DNA of 64,000 bases from NCBI GenBank assembly GCA_947503525.1, contig CANNEA010000001.1:868001-932000 (forward strand). The letters are read 5' to 3'. Source of the DNA: an uncultured Carboxylicivirga sp. (GTDB lineage Bacteria; Bacteroidota; Bacteroidia; Bacteroidales; Marinilabiliaceae). The notes below the pieces were generated by a model that worked only from the letters and a program-made list of their open reading frames with translations, was not told the origin of the DNA and searched no databases. The position numbers were made by a program, and so were the translations under genes. Each line of letters starts with the position of its first letter. Position 1 is the stretch's first letter. Of the stretch, positions 1 to 27,448 are shown one piece after another.

Positions 1-905
1 AATCCTTCTACAATGTAGGATTTGGTTCCCTGTGAACCAGGAATAATTCCCATTTCACCCAAACGGGCTCTTGTGGCACCTTTTCTGTGCACTAACACAT
101 TTTCGTTATAATGGTTTTCCCAGGCGGCATAGTTGTGGGCAATATTAATTAGCTCATCAAACTCTATCTTGCCTTTAAACACTTCCATAAAAGCATGCTG
201 TACACGTTCCATCATTAATCGTCGGTTGGCAAAGGCAAAGTCAACACAGTAATTCATTTCATTGATATAAGCATGTGCTTCGTCAGTTTCAATAGGCAAG
301 AAGGCCAAATCATGAGAAGCTGGTACTGTTGAATGCCAACGTTCATTTAATTGCTTCGCCTTTTTATTATAAAAATCGGCTACCTGTTTGCCTAGGTTTC
401 GGCTACCCGAATGAATCATTACCCAAACATTACCATCCGAACCATGCTGGATTTCAATAAAATGGTTTCCTCCTCCTAATGAGCCAATTTGTTTTGTTGC
501 TTTTACATAGTGTCGTTCTACAATATGAGGCAGTTCGTCAACTTGTGGCATACACTTTTCATCCTGTGCCTCCTTATGCCAGTTAAATCCAACAGGAATC
601 GTTTTTCGGATACGCGACATGATTTGCTTTAAAGTATCCGAATCTGCATCCTCCAAATTGGTTCGCATGGCACACATTCCACAGCCAATATCCACACCAA
701 CGGCATTGGGAATAATCACACCTTTGGTGGCTAATACACCACCAATGGGCATTCCATATCCTGAATGAGCATCGGGCATTAGTGCCACATGCTTATGTAC
801 AAAAGGTAAGTTAGCTAAGTTTTTAGCCTGTGAAAGTGCATTTCCTTCAATGTCATCCAACCACATTTTAATGGGGCGGTTTTCTGATGATATAACTTGT
901 TTCAT
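1..905 (-). CDS. rtcB: RtcB-family RNA ligase, copy 1 (C-terminus outside window)
   Basis: RtcB joins RNA 2',3'-cyclic phosphate or 3'-phosphate ends to 5'-OH ends using GTP and Mn2+. About 301 residues are visible, from the ATG at 905 to the window edge. Family landmarks seen are the LMPDAHSGYGMPIGG block, VGVDIGCGM with the metal-binding Cys, GGGNHFIEI, and HNYAAWENH followed by VHRKGATRA. The guanylated His near the C-terminus lies outside the window. It is downstream of and co-directional with the slipin gene, separated by 58 bp that contain a 13-bp hairpin. The pairing of RtcB with a band-7/slipin protein and a divergent WYL regulator suggests an inducible RNA-repair unit. It differs clearly from the second RtcB at 4146, which has a longer N-terminus, so the two are not a recent duplication. 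Confidence 0.93.
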   Translation of the reverse strand, partial: MKQVISSENRPIKMWLDDIEGNALSQAKNLANLPFVHKHVALMPDAHSGYGMPIGGVLATKGVIIPNAVGVDIGCGMCAMRTNLEDADSDTLKQIMSRIRKTIPVGFNWHKEAQDEKCMPQVDELPHIVERHYVKATKQIGSLGGGNHFIEIQHGSDGNVWVMIHSGSRNLGKQVADFYNKKAKQLNERWHSTVPASHDLAFLPIETDEAHAYINEMNYCVDFAFANRRLMMERVQHAFMEVFKGKIEFDELINIAHNYAAWENHYNENVLVHRKGATRARLGEMGIIPGSQGTKSYIVEG

Positions 906-921
906 TTTCTTCTCGTTTATT

Positions 922-952
922 ATGTAGGATGCAATCAACTTGCATCCTACAT
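922..952 (-). promoter_or_regulatory. Perfect 13-bp hairpin between slipin and rtcB
   Basis: ATGTAGGATGCAA (922-934) and its exact complement (940-952) flank a 5-nt loop. No U-run follows on the minus strand, so it is not a typical intrinsic terminator. It lies in the 58-bp gap between the slipin stop and the rtcB start. It may be an mRNA processing or stability element that sets rtcB expression relative to slipin; the function is inferred. Confidence 0.6.
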
Positions 953-963
953 TCAATTATCAT

Positions 964-2064
964 TTAATTAGAAGGAGAAAAGATATCTTTCAACTGATCA
1001 ACAATCTGACCACCTCCTGATAAAGATATGTTGTTTATCTTATCAGCAATCTTCTCCACATATTCCATTTCTTTTAATTTGAACAACATTTTGTTGTCTT
1101 CCATCAACTTGGCAGTATTCAACAAACTTCGGGTTGAAGCCGTTTCTTCGCGCCTGGTGATGATATTGGCCTGAGCTTTCTTTTGTGCTATCAATACCTG
1201 GTTCATAATTTCGCGTACATCGCCCGGTAAAATAATGTCACGTACACCACCATCGATCATTTTCACACCAAAACCAACAGCCTTTTCCTTTACAGATGTC
1301 ATTACAAATATCGATACTTCTTCTTTCCGTTCAAGAATTTCATCTAAAGTTAAAGTACCAACATATTCTCGCAATGCTAACTGGATAGACACATACAATT
1401 GCTTGATGTAGTCTTGGTTATCAGTTAAAGCTTTGATGGCGTCAACCACCTTATAGCTTGCAAAGAAACTCATTCTTAAAGCGGCTTTATCCTTCGTTAA
1501 TAACTCCTGTCCGGATACTTCCATCTGCGCCTGTCGCATATCGGCTTTTTTAACAGCAATAGGTGTGTTGTTTTTCCAGAAGTAGTACATACCCGGACTT
1601 AACTCTTTTTCAAATTGGTCATTAATGAATAATAAACCTTTCTCGTACGATTCAACCCGGTAAACCCGTGTATAAGGATTCACTTCCTGATGAGACAATA
1701 TGGACTTATCTATTGTATCAATTCCATCAGTATTTGAAATATCAATTTTTTCAAAACTATAATTGGTTGGACCTTTCCAATAAGCATGTCTTCCAGCAGT
1801 TAGAATGCCATTGAATACGCCATTCTTATAATTCAAAACAATTTCATTAGCTGCGACCTCAATTACAGTTAGCATGTTTGCCAAAACTTCATCTTGTAAT
1901 AGGATGTTGAGTTCCATCGATAATGATAAGGGTTCAGACATATTACAGATACCTACTTTATCAGAATAGCGTACCCAGTATTTGCCTTCGCTTAATACTT
2001 TCAAGTAGTCGCCATTTCTAAACACTAAACCTACTTTGCCTTGATTTATTCGTACTCGTTTCAT
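964..2064 (-). CDS. Slipin / SPFH (band 7) domain protein
   Basis: This 366-residue protein has an SPFH/slipin core at about residues 130-310 (VESYEKGLLFINDQF, then YVGTLTLDEILERKEEV and GVKMIDGGVRDIILPGDV) and a helical tail with AQKKAQANIITRREETASTRSLLNTAKL, typical of slipin C-termini. SPFH proteins form oligomeric membrane-associated scaffolds. No N-terminal transmembrane anchor is visible here, so it may be cytosolic or peripheral. An extra N-terminal region (1-125) repeats the band-7-like beta pattern. It is the first protein gene of the minus-strand unit and lies just downstream of the tRNA-like RNA region. Slipin genes beside rtcB are a recurrent arrangement; the biochemical role there is unknown to me. 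Confidence 0.85.
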   Translation of the reverse strand: MKRVRINQGKVGLVFRNGDYLKVLSEGKYWVRYSDKVGICNMSEPLSLSMELNILLQDEVLANMLTVIEVAANEIVLNYKNGVFNGILTAGRHAYWKGPTNYSFEKIDISNTDGIDTIDKSILSHQEVNPYTRVYRVESYEKGLLFINDQFEKELSPGMYYFWKNNTPIAVKKADMRQAQMEVSGQELLTKDKAALRMSFFASYKVVDAIKALTDNQDYIKQLYVSIQLALREYVGTLTLDEILERKEEVSIFVMTSVKEKAVGFGVKMIDGGVRDIILPGDVREIMNQVLIAQKKAQANIITRREETASTRSLLNTAKLMEDNKMLFKLKEMEYVEKIADKINNISLSGGGQIVDQLKDIFSPSN

Positions 2065-2332
2065 TTTAAGGTATATTTAGTTTGTTATTATTCTTTTTAT
2101 AAATGAAAGTAGTCTGACAGAGCCATCCTTGGTAACGGGAAGAAGAGATTAGAAACTTCCGAATAATTAGTTCGTCTGTTGAAAGTGTATAATTGTATTA
2201 ACCTACTTATCAGCAGAGAAAGTAATTAACATTAGTAATTCAAGCATCTTATTCACAGGTTGACCAAGAATTGTCGTACCCCAAAGGAGTTCGACTGGCT
2301 ATTAGTCATTCTACTTTCAAGTAACTGTATTT

Positions 2333-2380
2333 CAGAGGTAGTTAACCTCAGTTTCAGGATTCGAACCTGTTCGCCATAGG
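2333..2380 (-). ncRNA. Second T-arm-like element, degenerate tRNA-like module
   Basis: On the minus strand a T-arm-like hairpin (CAGG, TTCGAAT, CCTG; 2369-2355) is followed by another hairpin (GAGGT, TAACT, ACCTC; 2349-2335, extendable by one mismatch and a C-G pair). This is the same T-arm then closed acceptor order as the core at 2398-2468. The D-arm and anticodon-stem partners are poor: CTAT 2379-2376 can pair only with ATAG 2302-2299. It could be a degenerate copy, part of the same transcript, or chance. Confidence 0.35.
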
Positions 2381-2397
2381 GCTTAACCCGCGTTGGT

Positions 2398-2468
2398 GAT
2401 GTTGCTATACCCAATTTAGCTACTCTGGTTATTGGCCAGAAGGAGGACTCGAACCTCCAACCCACATC
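2398..2468 (-). ncRNA. Circularly permuted tRNA-like RNA (possible Y RNA)
   Basis: Read 5' to 3' on the minus strand: anticodon-type stem strand GATGT (2468-2464); 5-nt variable region GGGTT; T-arm GGAGG-TTCGAGT-CCTCC (2458-2442); acceptor-type strand TTCTGG (2441-2436); 7-nt loop CCAATAA; acceptor partner CCAGAG (2428-2423, one G-U); linker TA; D-arm GCTA-AATTGGGTA-TAGC (2420-2404); A; stem partner ACATC (2402-2398). Positions T8, A14, A15-T48, G18G19, A21, R26 and the T-loop all match tRNA rules. However, the acceptor stem is closed by a loop and the ends leave through the anticodon stem, so it cannot be an ordinary tRNA. Bacterial Y RNAs of the YrlA type carry a tRNA-like module and are encoded beside rtc genes in Salmonella; the match to that family is inference. 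Outer pairing (GGCTT 2518-2514 with AAGCC 2384-2380) may extend it. Confidence 0.7.
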
Positions 2469-2638
2469 GTGGTATGAATCAGTTGAAAAGCAAGCAGGAT
2501 ATTGAACTTAACCAAGCCAATACTATGAAGCTATACAGAAACTTACATCTCGTCTTGCAGGCCGACTTCATCATTTCTTTATCTCCTTGTTTGGAGAAAT
2601 ATTTTAATCACTGAAAGTGAATCATCTTCAAAGAACGT

Positions 2639-2657
2639 TTTTGTCACATTGACAAAA
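2639..2657. promoter_or_regulatory. Palindrome TTTTGTCA-CAT-TGACAAAA, candidate operator
   Basis: A perfect 8-bp inverted repeat with a 3-bp spacer lies 76 bp before the WYL start codon and upstream of the minus-strand RNA unit. A symmetric site in a divergent intergenic region is a natural operator for the adjacent regulator. The assignment to the WYL protein is inference. Confidence 0.5.
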
Positions 2658-2672
2658 CAAAGATTAGTAGGT

Positions 2673-2695
2673 ACTGCGCAGCCTTTTTGCGTAGT
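2673..2695. repeat. Inverted repeat ACTGCGCA / TGCGTAGT
   Basis: The arms (2673-2680 and 2688-2695) match at 7 of 8 positions across a 7-nt spacer, with a T-rich run after it on the plus strand. It sits 38 bp before the WYL start. It could be a second operator half or a 5'UTR hairpin of the WYL mRNA. Confidence 0.4.
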
Positions 2696-2733
2696 TGATA
2701 TTTTTTTTCTATTTTTCTGTAAAAAAGTGAATT

Positions 2734-3750
2734 ATGCCTGCTAATAGAAATGCACTCATCCGCTATACTACGATAGATAAATGTTTGCGAAACCGATATC
2801 GACAGTGGACCTTAGAGGATTTAATTGATGCTTGTTCAGATGCTCTGTATGAATTTGAAGGCATTGATAAGGGAGTGAGCAAACGGACTGTTCAGATGGA
2901 TATTCAAATGATGCGTAGTGAAAAGTTAGGCTATAACGCACCTATTACCGTTAAGGAAAAAAAGTACTATATCTATGATGATCTGGATTATTCAATTACT
3001 CAACTACCATTATCCGAACAGGACCTTAATAAACTGGGAGACGCTGTTGAAATTTTGAAGCAATTTCAGGGCTTTAGTCATTTTAAAGAGATGACCGGCC
3101 TGATACAGAAATTAGAGAATAAAATTCATACCGAGCATTCGCAATCGAGGCCTGTCATTCATATTGAACGAAACGAGAACTTAAAAGGTATGGAGCATCT
3201 CAATGGATTATATCAAGTCGTTCTGAAGAAACAGGTTGTTAAAGTCGAGTACCAATCTTTTAAAGCTAAACGTGCCAATCGAATTTATTTCAATCCCTAT
3301 TTACTTAAGGAATTCAATAACCGCTGGTTTCTTATTGGAAAACAGAAGAAAGGAGATATGATAATGAACCTGGCTTTAGATCGTATTCATTCTTTTGAAG
3401 TGATGAAAGATATCCCATTTAAGGATGATGCATCGTTTGATCCTTATACCTATTATAAGAATATTATAGGGGTAACGGTCAATTCTGGTCTGTATCCGCG
3501 CATTATCAAAATATTTGTGAACAATTACCATAAACCTTATGTGCTAACAAAACCATTACACTGGACACAAAGAGTTGTAGAGGAAAATGATAAAGGAGTT
3601 ATAATAACGATTAGAGTATTGCCAAATTTTGAGTTGGAGCGCGTTTTGTTAGGTTTTGGACCGGCTATTGAGGTTATATCGCCAGCGTCGTTAAGGAATA
3701 AGATTGGAGAATTATTAAATGAAGCCTCAATCTTATATAAGGATGTGTAG
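2734..3750 (+). CDS. WYL-domain transcriptional regulator
   Basis: This 338-residue protein has an N-terminal winged-helix-like region (about 1-75, with WTLEDLIDACSDAL and KRTVQMDIQMMRSEKLGY) and a WYL domain centred on FNNRWFLIGKQ (Trp about residue 198) and LALDRI, with a C-terminal WCX-like extension. WYL regulators sense ligands, including nucleic acids in some families, and control DNA-damage, phage-defence or RNA-repair genes. It is divergent from the tRNA-like RNA, slipin and rtcB, and upstream of and co-directional with the rtcB2-prfH operon, so it could control either or both. In Bacteroidota a WYL protein next to rtcB is common, as I recall. The 389-bp gap to the next start argues for a separate promoter for rtcB2. 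Confidence 0.88.
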   Translation: MPANRNALIRYTTIDKCLRNRYRQWTLEDLIDACSDALYEFEGIDKGVSKRTVQMDIQMMRSEKLGYNAPITVKEKKYYIYDDLDYSITQLPLSEQDLNKLGDAVEILKQFQGFSHFKEMTGLIQKLENKIHTEHSQSRPVIHIERNENLKGMEHLNGLYQVVLKKQVVKVEYQSFKAKRANRIYFNPYLLKEFNNRWFLIGKQKKGDMIMNLALDRIHSFEVMKDIPFKDDASFDPYTYYKNIIGVTVNSGLYPRIIKIFVNNYHKPYVLTKPLHWTQRVVEENDKGVIITIRVLPNFELERVLLGFGPAIEVISPASLRNKIGELLNEASILYKDV

Positions 3751-3924: not shown

Positions 3925-4150
3925 GATCAGAATGGTTAGTTTAGAACTAATCACACTTCTTGTTTTCTGATCGTCTGAATAAGACCTATTTCTTATTCTA
4001 AAATCACATTTTATTTATTTCATCTGACTGCAGAATTAATATTAGATTGTCGTGCATTATTGTGTTGTTAAATCAATGGAGGTTTCACAATGCAAGCATG
4101 TTGACTATCTCTGATATAATATAGTCAGATATTAACTCATTGCAAATGAG
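3925..4150 (+). promoter_or_regulatory. Hairpin-rich leader of the rtcB2-prfH operon
   Basis: The 395 bp before rtcB2 contain several strong hairpins. GATCAGAA (3925-3932) pairs with TTCTGATC (3965-3972) and encloses an 8-bp hairpin 3934-3952. GAATAAG (3977-3983) pairs with CTTATTC (3992-3998). ATTGTG (4059-4064) pairs with CACAAT (4086-4091). GACTAT (4103-4108) with ATAGTC (4121-4126) competes with a bulged TATCT-C-TGA (4106-4114) against TCAGATA (4125-4131). Finally CTCATT-GCA-AATGAG (4136-4150) buries the ATG at 4146. The first 170 bp (3751-3924) hold nothing I recognise. The density and the mutually exclusive pairs suggest RNA-based control. Confidence 0.5.
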
Positions 4151-5549
4151 CAAGTCTAAGATAAAAGGCAAAGACCTAAAAAAAATAAATTATAAATCAG
4201 ATAGAGCTAAAAGTCTGGCAATAAATATTATTAACAGCGACTATAAGCACCTGTCTAAACAAAATAAATTAGAAATTCTTGAAGCTGTTCTTTTGAATCC
4301 TAAAGACTATTTAGAGCATCCTTCTTTATCGAAAATTGCAGAAGAACTAATTGGAAAAGTTAAAACGGATAGAGGAACCATTTATCATTTTGATTGTGAA
4401 GAAAAGCCATTTGCCATTTACGGTAAAAAGCATATTACGCAAGACACAATCAGGCAAATGGAAACGGCAATGCAACTACCAGTTTCGCAATATGGAGCCT
4501 TAATGCCAGATGCACATGTTGGTTATGGTTTGCCTATTGGAGGTGTGTTGGCAACTAAAAATGCTGTACTGCCTTATGGGGTTGGACTGGATATTGGTTG
4601 CAGAATGTCATTAAGCATCTATGATGTTCCATCTGAATACATAAAGCGGAACAGTTATCAGATTAAGACTGCTTTAAAAGAGCAGACGTACTTTGGTATT
4701 GGTAAAATAGAAAAACACAATTTAGATCATGAAGTACTCGAAAGAAACGAGTTTAATGAAATTGACATTCTTAAACAGTTAAAATGCAAAGCTCAAAACC
4801 AATTGGGTAGCTCTGGTTCGGGCAATCACTTTGTTGAGTTCGGAATTATTGAGTTAACCAATAATAATGTGTTTAAGCTTAAAGAAGGACAGTATGTTGG
4901 GCTTTTGTCGCATTCGGGTTCAAGGGGATTGGGAGCAGCTATTGCCGGTCATTATACCAAGTTAGCTATGCAAGAGTGTATGTTGCCAGCTGGAGCTAAG
5001 CATTTGGCATGGATTGACTTACATAGTGAAGCCGGACAAGAATATTGGGCAGCCATGAATTTGGCCGGAGATTATGCTAAAGCATGTCACGATGTGATTC
5101 ACTATCGACTATCCAAAGCATTAGGCATTAAACCGGTGGTAAACATTGAGAACCATCATAATTTTGCCTGGAAAGAATGCATTAATGATGAGGAGTTAAT
5201 TGTACATCGAAAGGGAGCAACTCCTGCTGCTGAAGGCCAGATGGGTATAATACCAGCGGATATGATGAATCCTGGTTATATAGTTTCCGGTACAGGTAAT
5301 GATATGGCACTTAATTCAGCATCGCATGGTGCAGGTAGGCGCTTAAGCCGAAAAAGAGCCAAGGATAGCTTTACAGGTAGTGAACTCAAAAAGCTACTTA
5401 AGCAGAATAAGATTACACTAATAGGAGGTGGTACAGAAGAAGCACCGATGGCCTATAAAAATCTGGAGGAAGTTATGGCATCACAGAATGAACTTATAAA
5501 TATTGAGGGTAAATTTTATCCTCAGATAGTAAGAATGGATAAACAATAA
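4146..5549 (+). CDS. rtcB: RtcB-family RNA ligase, copy 2 (RtcB2, PrfH-linked)
   Basis: This 467-residue RtcB is of the type found with PrfH. An N-terminal extension of about 115 residues precedes the catalytic core LMPDAHVGYGLPIGG. Key residues visible are C152 in GLDIGCRM, the GSSGSGNHFVEFG and SHSGSRGLG blocks, ENHHNFAW, and SASHGAGRR whose H394 corresponds to the guanylated histidine. In E. coli, RtcB2 and PrfH together rescue ribosomes whose 16S decoding centre has been cut: PrfH releases the stalled peptide and RtcB2 religates the rRNA. The PrfH gene follows after 4 bp, strongly supporting that role. A TTG two codons upstream (4140) is in frame, but ATG 4146 is the better start and lies in a small hairpin. 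Confidence 0.93.
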   Translation: MSKSKIKGKDLKKINYKSDRAKSLAINIINSDYKHLSKQNKLEILEAVLLNPKDYLEHPSLSKIAEELIGKVKTDRGTIYHFDCEEKPFAIYGKKHITQDTIRQMETAMQLPVSQYGALMPDAHVGYGLPIGGVLATKNAVLPYGVGLDIGCRMSLSIYDVPSEYIKRNSYQIKTALKEQTYFGIGKIEKHNLDHEVLERNEFNEIDILKQLKCKAQNQLGSSGSGNHFVEFGIIELTNNNVFKLKEGQYVGLLSHSGSRGLGAAIAGHYTKLAMQECMLPAGAKHLAWIDLHSEAGQEYWAAMNLAGDYAKACHDVIHYRLSKALGIKPVVNIENHHNFAWKECINDEELIVHRKGATPAAEGQMGIIPADMMNPGYIVSGTGNDMALNSASHGAGRRLSRKRAKDSFTGSELKKLLKQNKITLIGGGTEEAPMAYKNLEEVMASQNELINIEGKFYPQIVRMDKQ

Positions 5550-5553
5550 AATA

Positions 5554-6252
5554 ATGGAAACAATAATACTACAAATAACATCAGGAAGAGGCCCGGCAGA
5601 ATGTTGCTGGGTGGTAGCTCGTGTTCTTAAATACATTATTGACGAAGTAAAGCGCACTGATATTAACTACAGCATAATGCACAGAGAAAAAGGAATTGAG
5701 AATGGAACGCTATACTCTGCCAGCATACATCTGAAAGGTAAAAATGCTGATTGCTTCGCAAAGCAGTGGATTGGGACGATTCAATGGGTAGGGCAAAGCC
5801 AGTTTAGAAAACATCATAAACGTAAGAACTGGTTTGTCGCTATCAATGAGATAAACATTAAGAACAATACTTTTAATGTCAGAGATAAAGATTTTAGCTA
5901 CCAGGCTATTCGTTCAGGCGGACCGGGAGGTCAGCATGTGAATAAGGTCAGCACAGCTATCAGAGCAAAGCATAATCCAAGTGGACTAAATGTAATGGTT
6001 TCTGAAAGTCGATCACAGCTTCAGAATAAAAAGCTGGCTAAAATCCGACTTCTTGAAATGATAAAGCTTGAGGAGATCAACGTACATAAAAGTAAACTGC
6101 AAGCCGAATGGAAGAATCATTCCGAAATACAAAGAGGTAATCCAGTTAGAACTTTCTATGGCAGTGATTTTAAAGTCCGCAAGGATGAAACAAATTATAA
6201 ACAGAAACGACGCTCCCTGAAGCATAACCTTAAAAGGGAGCTACTTGAATAA
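5554..6252 (+). CDS. prfH: Peptide chain release factor H (PrfH)
   Basis: This 232-residue class I release factor homologue is much shorter than RF1/RF2. The peptidyl-tRNA hydrolysis motif GGQ is at residues 125-127 within SGGPGGQHVNKVSTAIRAKH, followed by SESRSQLQNKKLA and a basic tail. The N-terminal part (LQITSGRGPAECCWVVARVL) is characteristic of PrfH and lacks the codon-recognition domain of RF1/RF2. It sits 4 bp after rtcB2 and 9 bp before a TPR gene, so the three are probably one operon. Function as a release factor for ribosomes with a damaged decoding centre is taken from the E. coli PrfH/RtcB2 work and applied here by homology. Confidence 0.92.
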   Translation: METIILQITSGRGPAECCWVVARVLKYIIDEVKRTDINYSIMHREKGIENGTLYSASIHLKGKNADCFAKQWIGTIQWVGQSQFRKHHKRKNWFVAINEINIKNNTFNVRDKDFSYQAIRSGGPGGQHVNKVSTAIRAKHNPSGLNVMVSESRSQLQNKKLAKIRLLEMIKLEEINVHKSKLQAEWKNHSEIQRGNPVRTFYGSDFKVRKDETNYKQKRRSLKHNLKRELLE

Positions 6253-26904: not shown

Positions 26905-27050
26905 TTTATTTCCATTTTTGTACAACAATTGTCAAACAAATCTGGAAATAAAGTGATATTTAATGATTCAATAGATTGGAAAGAATCTTTCTAAATAGCT
27001 GAAAGTGAAAACTTTTGAAACTTTTGATTTCAATTATTTTCACTTTCTAG

Positions 27051-27448
27051 TGGAGCTGCAGGGAATCGAACCCTGGTCCAGACAAGGAAGCTCAATGCTT
27101 TCTACATGCTTAGCTTCGACTTAGTTTTCGAGTAATAGCTGGATCAAAGCCACCGACTATTACCTTATCCTCTTTATTTCGGAAAAAGCCCAAGGTTTAC
27201 CTTTTCCTAGTTTCGATTTTGCTAGCATCTCTGGTACGAACCGCCTCAAAACGATAGCATCCGTGAGATGTCTTGTTTCAACACCTAGTGAAGAAATTAA
27301 GCTAATCTACTATAATTCGATTAAGCTGCAAGAGCGTAATTATTTTCGCCAATTAAAAAGTTTGAGATCCGGGTTTTACGAGTCAGCATCACGACACTCG
27401 ACATGCTTACATATCACTTTGCCAAGCTGTCAAATCCACGTCAGCCCC
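27051..27448 (-). ncRNA. ssrA: tmRNA
   Basis: On the minus strand the RNA starts GGGGCTGA (27448) and ends with T-arm GGGTTCGATTCCC and acceptor CAGCTCC plus A (27051), which pairs with the 5' GGGGCTG. The internal tag frame (27350-27321) reads GENNYALAA and stop, the tag known from Porphyromonas-type Bacteroidota. tmRNA with SmpB rescues ribosomes stalled on broken mRNA and marks the peptide for degradation. The genome has CTA rather than CCA after position 73, so CCA would need to be added enzymatically; integration at this end may have altered it. The neighbouring integrase lies just beyond the 3' end. Confidence 0.95.

Follow-up and report, generated by a model that had tools for sequence, protein, structure and literature searches.

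A circularly permuted tRNA-like module in the structured leader RNA of a Bacteroidota slipin-rtcB operon

The window, i.e., the whole 64,000-nt stretch of an uncultured Carboxylicivirga sp. contig analyzed here, carries at one end a slipin gene followed by rtcB and, divergent from them, a WYL-WCX regulator, behind which come another rtcB and genes for a PrfH-like release factor and a TPR protein. The slipin gene is preceded by a long structured leader, and the features of this region are as follows.

3..956, minus strand: rtcB copy 1, downstream of slipin and running off the window (PF01139, E 2.3e-90)
964..2064, minus strand: slipin/SPFH (Band_7) protein, 366 aa (PF01145, E 1.5e-26)
2115..2650, minus strand: structured leader RNA of the slipin-rtcB operon, based on a ten-leader alignment and a split test, its 5' end assumed to lie just past the promoter
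2335..2370, minus strand: module 2, degenerate in this genome, with T-arm ACAGG-TTCGAAT-CCTGA and hairpin GAGG-TTAACTA-CCTC
2398..2468, minus strand: module 1, permuted tRNA-like, from its sequence, a scanner, covariation and a forward-order test in relatives
2528..2544, minus strand: 5' hairpin AAGTTTCTGTATAGCTT; a similar loop sits on a different stem in other Bacteroidota leaders
2658..2666, minus strand: promoter-like sequence TAATCTTTG, likened to TAnnTTTG, which we take to be the Bacteroidota promoter consensus
2672..2697, no strand: inverted repeat CTACGCA-N7-TGCGCAG in the WYL-leader interval, a possible operator
2734..3750, plus strand: WYL-WCX regulator, divergent from the leader (PF13280, PF25583)
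4140..5549, plus strand: rtcB copy 2 (domain match)
5554..6252, plus strand: PrfH-like release factor with an RF-1 domain, the name PrfH resting on the RtcB context (compare excerpts of PMC6514570)
6262..6804, plus strand: TPR protein (domain match)

Kin loci were found under names such as Carboxylicivirga, Marinilabiliaceae, Plebeiobacterium, Labilibacter, Sphingobacterium and Saprospiraceae. Among 21 of them (L035 repeats L023), a WYL relative is present in 18 and an RtcB relative in 16; the five without the latter (L012, L013, L015, L019 and L020) were covered for 5-6 kb past slipin, and several kb separate slipin from the WYL relative in L012 and L013. For 19 shorter loci (L056-L074), a WYL relative was seen in 3 and an RtcB relative in 7, the other 12 being covered for only ~1.5 kb or less past slipin. 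A search of phage records for slipin gave no match. Shared control of slipin, rtcB and a tRNA operon, by a different regulator, is described for Anabaena TrcR in excerpts of PMC10272220.

The initial annotation had described a tRNA fold with its 3' half ahead of its 5' half at positions 2398-2468, and all the arms that it named are present there on the minus strand. They form a complete circularly permuted tRNA-like module, with T-arm, closed acceptor hairpin and D-arm held within an anticodon-type stem, 334-404 nt upstream of slipin. Along the strand the order is anticodon-type strand, V region, T-arm, acceptor strand, loop CCAATAA, acceptor strand, D-arm and anticodon-type strand.

2464-2468 with 2398-2402, minus strand: anticodon-type outer stem GATGT/ACATC
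2459-2463, minus strand: V region GGGTT, 5 nt
2442-2458, minus strand: T-arm GGAGG-TTCGAGT-CCTCC
2423-2441, minus strand: acceptor hairpin TTCTGG-CCAATAA-CCAGAG, loop 2429-2435, outermost pair U.G
2421-2422, minus strand: TA (tRNA positions 8-9)
2404-2420, minus strand: D-arm GCTA-AATTGGGTA-TAGC, bearing A14, A15, GG and A21
2403, minus strand: position 26

Within this fold, A15 is able to pair with T48. A scanner for the permuted order scored module 1 at 20 and three other matches in the 64-kb window (both strands) at 15, 15 and 16; on six loci of the same genome with tRNA genes it returned one weak match (score 13), and on 4400 dinucleotide-block-shuffled leaders 103 matches of any score, from which we conclude that module 1 is not a chance occurrence. 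A conserved protein frame over the same bases, the competing reading raised by the initial annotation, is absent from module 1 of ten Bacteroidales leaders: no stop-free frame is common to all of them on either strand, and the coding reading was rejected on this ground.

For comparison, we used 40 distinct Bacteroidota slipin leaders, i.e., that of the window plus 16, 4 and 19 from three relative searches. The first search returned 18 loci, two of which (L022 and L025) had no usable leader; the second also returned six further loci with leaders identical to those of the first, and in addition L024 and L033 are the same at 595 of 600 positions; the third found slipin at E 1e-40 in 20 of 395 Bacteroidota genomes, the window's own included. 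At least one complete permuted module is present in 38 of the 40 leaders, 36 by the scanner and two, L010 and L028, by eye in alignment A1, the scanner having missed or mis-parsed them. The exceptions are L019, with a T-arm only, and L061, with no proper D-arm. Per leader, the number of complete modules ranges from none to 3, with up to 4 T-arms (L058, L059).

These modules covary as the permuted fold predicts, and the compensatory changes in homologous loci that the initial annotation had proposed as a check are present. In alignment A1 (21 modules), 94.8% of cells pair and 18 of 21 pairs show two-sided changes, with 42-56% of cells paired in slid controls; in alignment A2 (54 modules from 34 loci), the corresponding values are 95.6%, 15 of 16 pairs and 35-50%. 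Since the A2 modules were selected by T, acceptor and D pairing, the 15-48 pair and the outer stem are the only tests free of selection. The tertiary 15-48 pair is kept as C-G or U-A in 53 of the 54 modules vs 51% expected from composition, with a tail probability of 8e-15 if modules were independent, a figure that overstates because they are related. With 31 modules of A2 treated as first and 23 as non-first, the outer stem forms 4 or 5 of its 5 pairs in 26 of the 31 first modules; of the five below, L036 and L074 form all five pairs if the V region is taken as 4 nt. A2 holds 54 of 55 scanner candidates, L061 being left out for a D-arm that is not tRNA-like. T-like TTCAATT matches (L023, L034, L035) and modules of low score or with a loop >10 nt (e.g., the first of L056 and the second of L015 and L020) had been dropped before the counts, and identical modules (L017 first, L018 and L021) merged.

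Tandem permuted modules contain a D-arm and then a T-arm in tRNA order, and the same sequences could instead be two tandem tRNA genes of the ordinary kind, in remnant or disguised form, whose neighboring halves merely look permuted. We compared both orders on 17 adjacent module pairs: folded in forward tRNA order, they form the D1-V2 tertiary pair in 8 of 17 cases and pair 49 of 102 acceptor cells, whereas the permuted order of the same modules gives 33 of 34 tertiary pairs and 97 of 102 acceptor cells. Tandem ordinary tRNAs were thus rejected as the present fold, and the permuted order proposed in the initial annotation is confirmed by covariation and by this forward-order test. The Rfam tRNA model does reach or exceed its gathering score across neighboring modules of several leaders (29.4-32.0 bits in L012, L013, L014 and L016; 43.5 in L063, 40.0 in L058 and 39.8 in L064, more than the YrlA matches of these last three), which we attribute to the succession of D-arm and T-arm; these scores stand against the permuted fold, and it is the pairing test that decides for it. 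Also in favor of tandem tRNAs, ordinary tRNA genes lie near some loci, tandem tRNA pairs of the window's own genome score no lower than the window with the Rfam YrlA model, and a normal-order pair from Photobacterium matches R1, a covariance model built from slipin leaders only, at 36.6 bits. However, in the window's own genome R1 gives the window 66.1 bits and the next best place, a tandem tRNA pair, 50.4, and ARAGORN reports no tRNA at the window site. Overall, we regard a remnant or disguised tRNA pair as highly improbable; the modules may have originated from tandem tRNAs.

The acceptor loop, counted past six pairs, measures 3-7 nt in 45 of 54 modules and is of GNRA type in some Sphingobacterium modules. 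Circularly permuted tRNA genes (PMC3978253) likewise place the 3' half before the 5' half, but the loci of that paper are described as tRNA genes, whereas here the acceptor strands are joined by these short loops. A module with joined acceptor ends cannot be CCA-tailed or charged, and no mature tRNA would be expected from the slipin-leader modules.

Later modules often bear an anticodon arm of their own. A 5-bp stem with a 7-nt loop carrying U33 and R37 follows 16 of the 54 modules vs 1.05% in shuffles, 15 of these 16 being among the 23 non-first modules, and the anticodon-like triplets vary from locus to locus. We found no such arm in the window; module 2 (2335..2370) has no clear D-arm or anticodon arm, and its hairpin covaries (alignment A3, columns 338-352). 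Such arms speak for a decoy or damage sensor, in which the unchargeable modules, above all the later anticodon-armed ones, would bait tRNA-cutting toxins; a cut would sever the leader from the slipin mRNA, RtcB would re-seal it, and damage and repair would be read in cis. Consistent with this, excerpts of PMC7790460 propose that the tRNA-like domain of YrlA may be a competitive inhibitor of an anticodon nuclease; the same excerpts report no YrlA fragments, which argues that YrlA is not cut by that nuclease. The missing arm in the window also weighs against a decoy or sensor, as do closed acceptor ends that lack the 3' end many tRNA enzymes need, and we consider it unlikely.

Module 1 sits inside a much longer paired RNA. 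The initial annotation was right to place the module at 2398-2468, but the feature as a whole is far larger and spans about 2115-2650. The leader is ~500 nt long, with predicted base pairs covering about 2115-2618, and RNAalifold on ten Bacteroidales leaders (555-nt alignment) yields 121 pairs, 51 of them with two-sided changes. A fairer measure than this pair count is the split test: a structure derived from four leaders pairs 87.6% of cells in six held-out ones, against 37-45% in slid controls, and 86.3% against 36-44% once module 1 is removed. Among the predicted elements are long-range helices, together with a hairpin around GUUUCUGUAUAGC; the loop of this hairpin is seen again in other groups.

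No terminator-like site was found on the minus strand in 1900-2760, and the leader therefore probably runs into slipin and rtcB. The initial annotation had let the RNA ends leave through the anticodon stem and suggested a circular RNA; the longer paired leader and the missing terminator-like site make it probable that this stem does not hold the RNA ends, and a circular RNA with free ends was rejected on both grounds. A leader that acts purely in cis, controlling slipin and rtcB (e.g., via tRNA-handling proteins) with no role in trans, would fit its place directly before slipin, the missing terminator-like site and predicted pairs that stop only about 50 nt short of the slipin start codon. It fits less well with a module number that varies between leaders (none to 3 complete, up to 4 T-arms) and with Y RNAs of the same module, which are reported to act in trans in excerpts of PMC8394870; we rate a purely cis role as unlikely. 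In L009 and L011, an ATG or GTG followed by AAACGAAC and a stop is found ~90 nt upstream of the slipin start, which looks as though it had been duplicated or moved.

Upstream of the leader, the inverted repeat at 2672..2697 is a candidate operator, possibly, and also scores as terminator-like on the plus strand. The dyad CTRCGCA-N7-TGCGYAG or a looser form occurs in 31 of the 40 distinct leaders vs 41 of 4000 shuffled leaders, for a pattern that was drawn from the window and leader sequences themselves and later loosened.

The permuted order itself is already known from YrlA, and the initial annotation, which took it as a surprise, was anticipated by published work that overlays Y RNA on tRNA through a circular permutation (PMC11472068, in excerpt). 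Its assignment to a YrlA-type topology is borne out: the Rfam YrlA model (RF02553) matches module 1 in the same arm order, at 35.7 bits (E 4.6e-6 in 701 nt), below the gathering score of 69 and over model positions 23-86 of 114 only. Tandem tRNA-Asn and tRNA-Asp pairs of the same genome match this model slightly better (38.2 and 37.8 bits), so that the Rfam match alone proves little and the comparative data decide; at E 10, the model finds matches in 13 of 14 control genomes. Among other slipin loci, 13 of 15 scanned match at 29.8-42.2 bits, and six leaders (L057, L058, L064, L072, L073 and L074) match positions 1-114, weakly. Scores above gathering were seen for L107, from a TROVE genome, and for L105 (1469-1597), from genome G699 with no TROVE match. 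L088, L095, L101, L102 and L103 miss the gathering score; as L095, L101 and L088 are Ro60-linked, this score is a weak criterion for YrlA membership.

Model R1 links the two sets of RNAs. In 395 Bacteroidota genomes, R1 and TROVE matches lie no more than about 2.6 kb apart in at least 20 of the 27 genomes with TROVE, as counted from coordinates among the matches listed, some of which were inspected. In L095, Pfam places TROVE-vWA_Ro60 upstream and RtcB downstream of the RNA. As R1 finds Ro60-linked Y RNAs, the modules of slipin leaders and those of Y RNAs appear to share a single structural type. Genome-wide, R1 is not specific: 304 of the 395 genomes match at E 1e-4, and of 14 non-slipin R1 loci examined, four (L100, L106, L108 and L109) are tandem tRNA genes.

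The leader could be a plain YrlA Y RNA whose Ro60 was missed or lies at a distance. Its module has the YrlA topology, and L105, with an above-gathering YrlA in a genome without a TROVE match, shows that Y RNAs can be present where no Ro60 is detected. However, the Ro60/TROVE gene (PF05731) that the initial annotation had suggested was not found in a search of the whole genome (one of 14 control genomes matched), and the YrlA match is partial and below gathering; plain YrlA identity was rejected on these grounds. In the 395 Bacteroidota genomes, slipin (20 genomes) and TROVE (27) overlap in one, which is about chance, so that slipin leaders do not follow Ro60, nor is there mutual exclusion beyond chance. 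We therefore give a plain Y RNA very little credence.

The slipin-leader RNA shares with YrlA a permuted T-acceptor-D module inside a stem and proximity to rtcB in some genomes (L095; excerpts of PMC7790460), and the slipin-derived model R1 also picks up Y RNAs. Unlike YrlA, it comes with slipin and with no Ro60 gene found here, and it is a large leader, often with several modules, some with their own anticodon arm. The Salmonella rsr-yrlBA-rtcBA operon similarly unites an RNA repair ligase and a tRNA-like RNA, but with RtcR and Ro60 (excerpts of PMC7790460) where the window locus has WYL and slipin.

Slipin leaders with tRNA-like RNAs extend beyond Bacteroidota. In 391 genomes of a Clostridia-titled group (the class of L025), nine carry a related slipin at E 1e-40, and in four of the nine leaders (L114, L115, L116 and L118) the first module is permuted and canonical, its acceptor loop being four bases long, and R1, built without these modules, scores them at 50.8-58.9 bits; the others are weaker, L117 having no T-arm, and a loose normal-order check also matched in L111 and L115. 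Proteobacterial leaders (L078, L079), from Burkholderia and Photobacterium, hold tRNA-like elements in normal order, so that permuted and normal forms both occur with slipin and permuted order is not essential to the association. In the Burkholderia element (L078 4590-4760), the anticodon stem is capped by GAAA, hence there is no usual anticodon loop. The E. coli and Citrobacter leaders have a T-arm and an acceptor-like hairpin only. In these enterobacteria, a nucleotidyltransferase gene follows slipin (L075 4998-6922; L076 2960-6913), and the Citrobacter slipin is divergent from rtcR.

Burroughs and Aravind reportedly noted, in 2016, a 'novel tRNA-like molecule' with SPFH/Band-7 modules. Their RNA reportedly resembles ours in its link to a Band-7 scaffold and to an RNA ligase, and the window locus has a tRNA-like RNA beside a Band-7 gene and RtcB; the Burkholderia and Photobacterium leaders here are in normal order. 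None of the search listings or paper excerpts covered names a tandem permuted array in a large leader, and a search for a Band-7-associated tRNA by name found none. As far as checked, the new elements are the Ro60-free setting, the tandem modules, the large leader and the later modules with an anticodon arm.

Taken together, module 1 is the first of the YrlA-type permuted modules in a large slipin-RtcB leader, divergent from WYL. The initial annotation had proposed a tRNA mimic serving the RtcB unit; the mimicry and the positional tie to slipin-RtcB stand, and service to that unit is what we infer from them. With confidence close to, but short of, an even chance, we favor the RNA as a Ro60-free counterpart of Y RNAs that docks tRNA-binding enzymes on an SPFH scaffold. 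In favor of this reading are the covariation and the 15-48 pair, the failure of forward order, the arm order shared with YrlA, the R1 matches near TROVE, the recurrent WYL and RtcB neighbors and the leader structure on held-out sequences; against it count the loci that show no RtcB relative, the distant WYL relatives of L012 and L013, the degenerate module 2 of this genome, the incomplete L019 and L061, the tRNA-model scores across neighboring modules and the normal order of proteobacterial leaders. The RNA would be made when RNA damage lifts WYL control, and its modules would present the T/D elbow and a closed acceptor stem. In excerpts of PMC8394870, the tRNA-like domain of YrlA binds PNPase and is modified by DusA and TruB; modules here might, by a purely conjectural binding, dock RtcB, tRNA-modifying enzymes and perhaps PNPase on the scaffold, and this docking would concentrate repair on damaged tRNA and ribosomes. 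A broader proposal, which we advance tentatively and with somewhat less than even confidence, is that a ~500-nt RNA of tandem permuted modules is the RNA half of a slipin-RtcB repair particle, found in Bacteroidota and some Clostridia-like bacteria and independent of Ro60.

This suggests that Y RNA-type tRNA mimicry is not bound to Ro60, with SPFH/slipin as a second scaffold family associated with the same swapped-order module, and a precise RNA is now available to seek in slipin-RtcB systems. As the mimic is unchargeable and its later modules are often anticodon-armed, the sensor, decoy and scaffold ideas are directly testable.

A few further RNAs were noted along the way. Just downstream of the Ro60-linked permuted Y RNA of L095, ARAGORN reports a tRNA-??? 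in normal order (1623-1709; also L096 1623-1709 and L097 1351-1437). A Flavo-1 RNA (RF01705) was matched near the Ro60-linked Y RNA of L088 (378-455, 72.8 bits) and in the slipin leader of L073 (2764-2837, 36 bits, below gathering). In the window itself, the only report of a gathering-score Rfam scan over the full length is a tmRNA gene at 27050-27448, with tag GENNYALAA.
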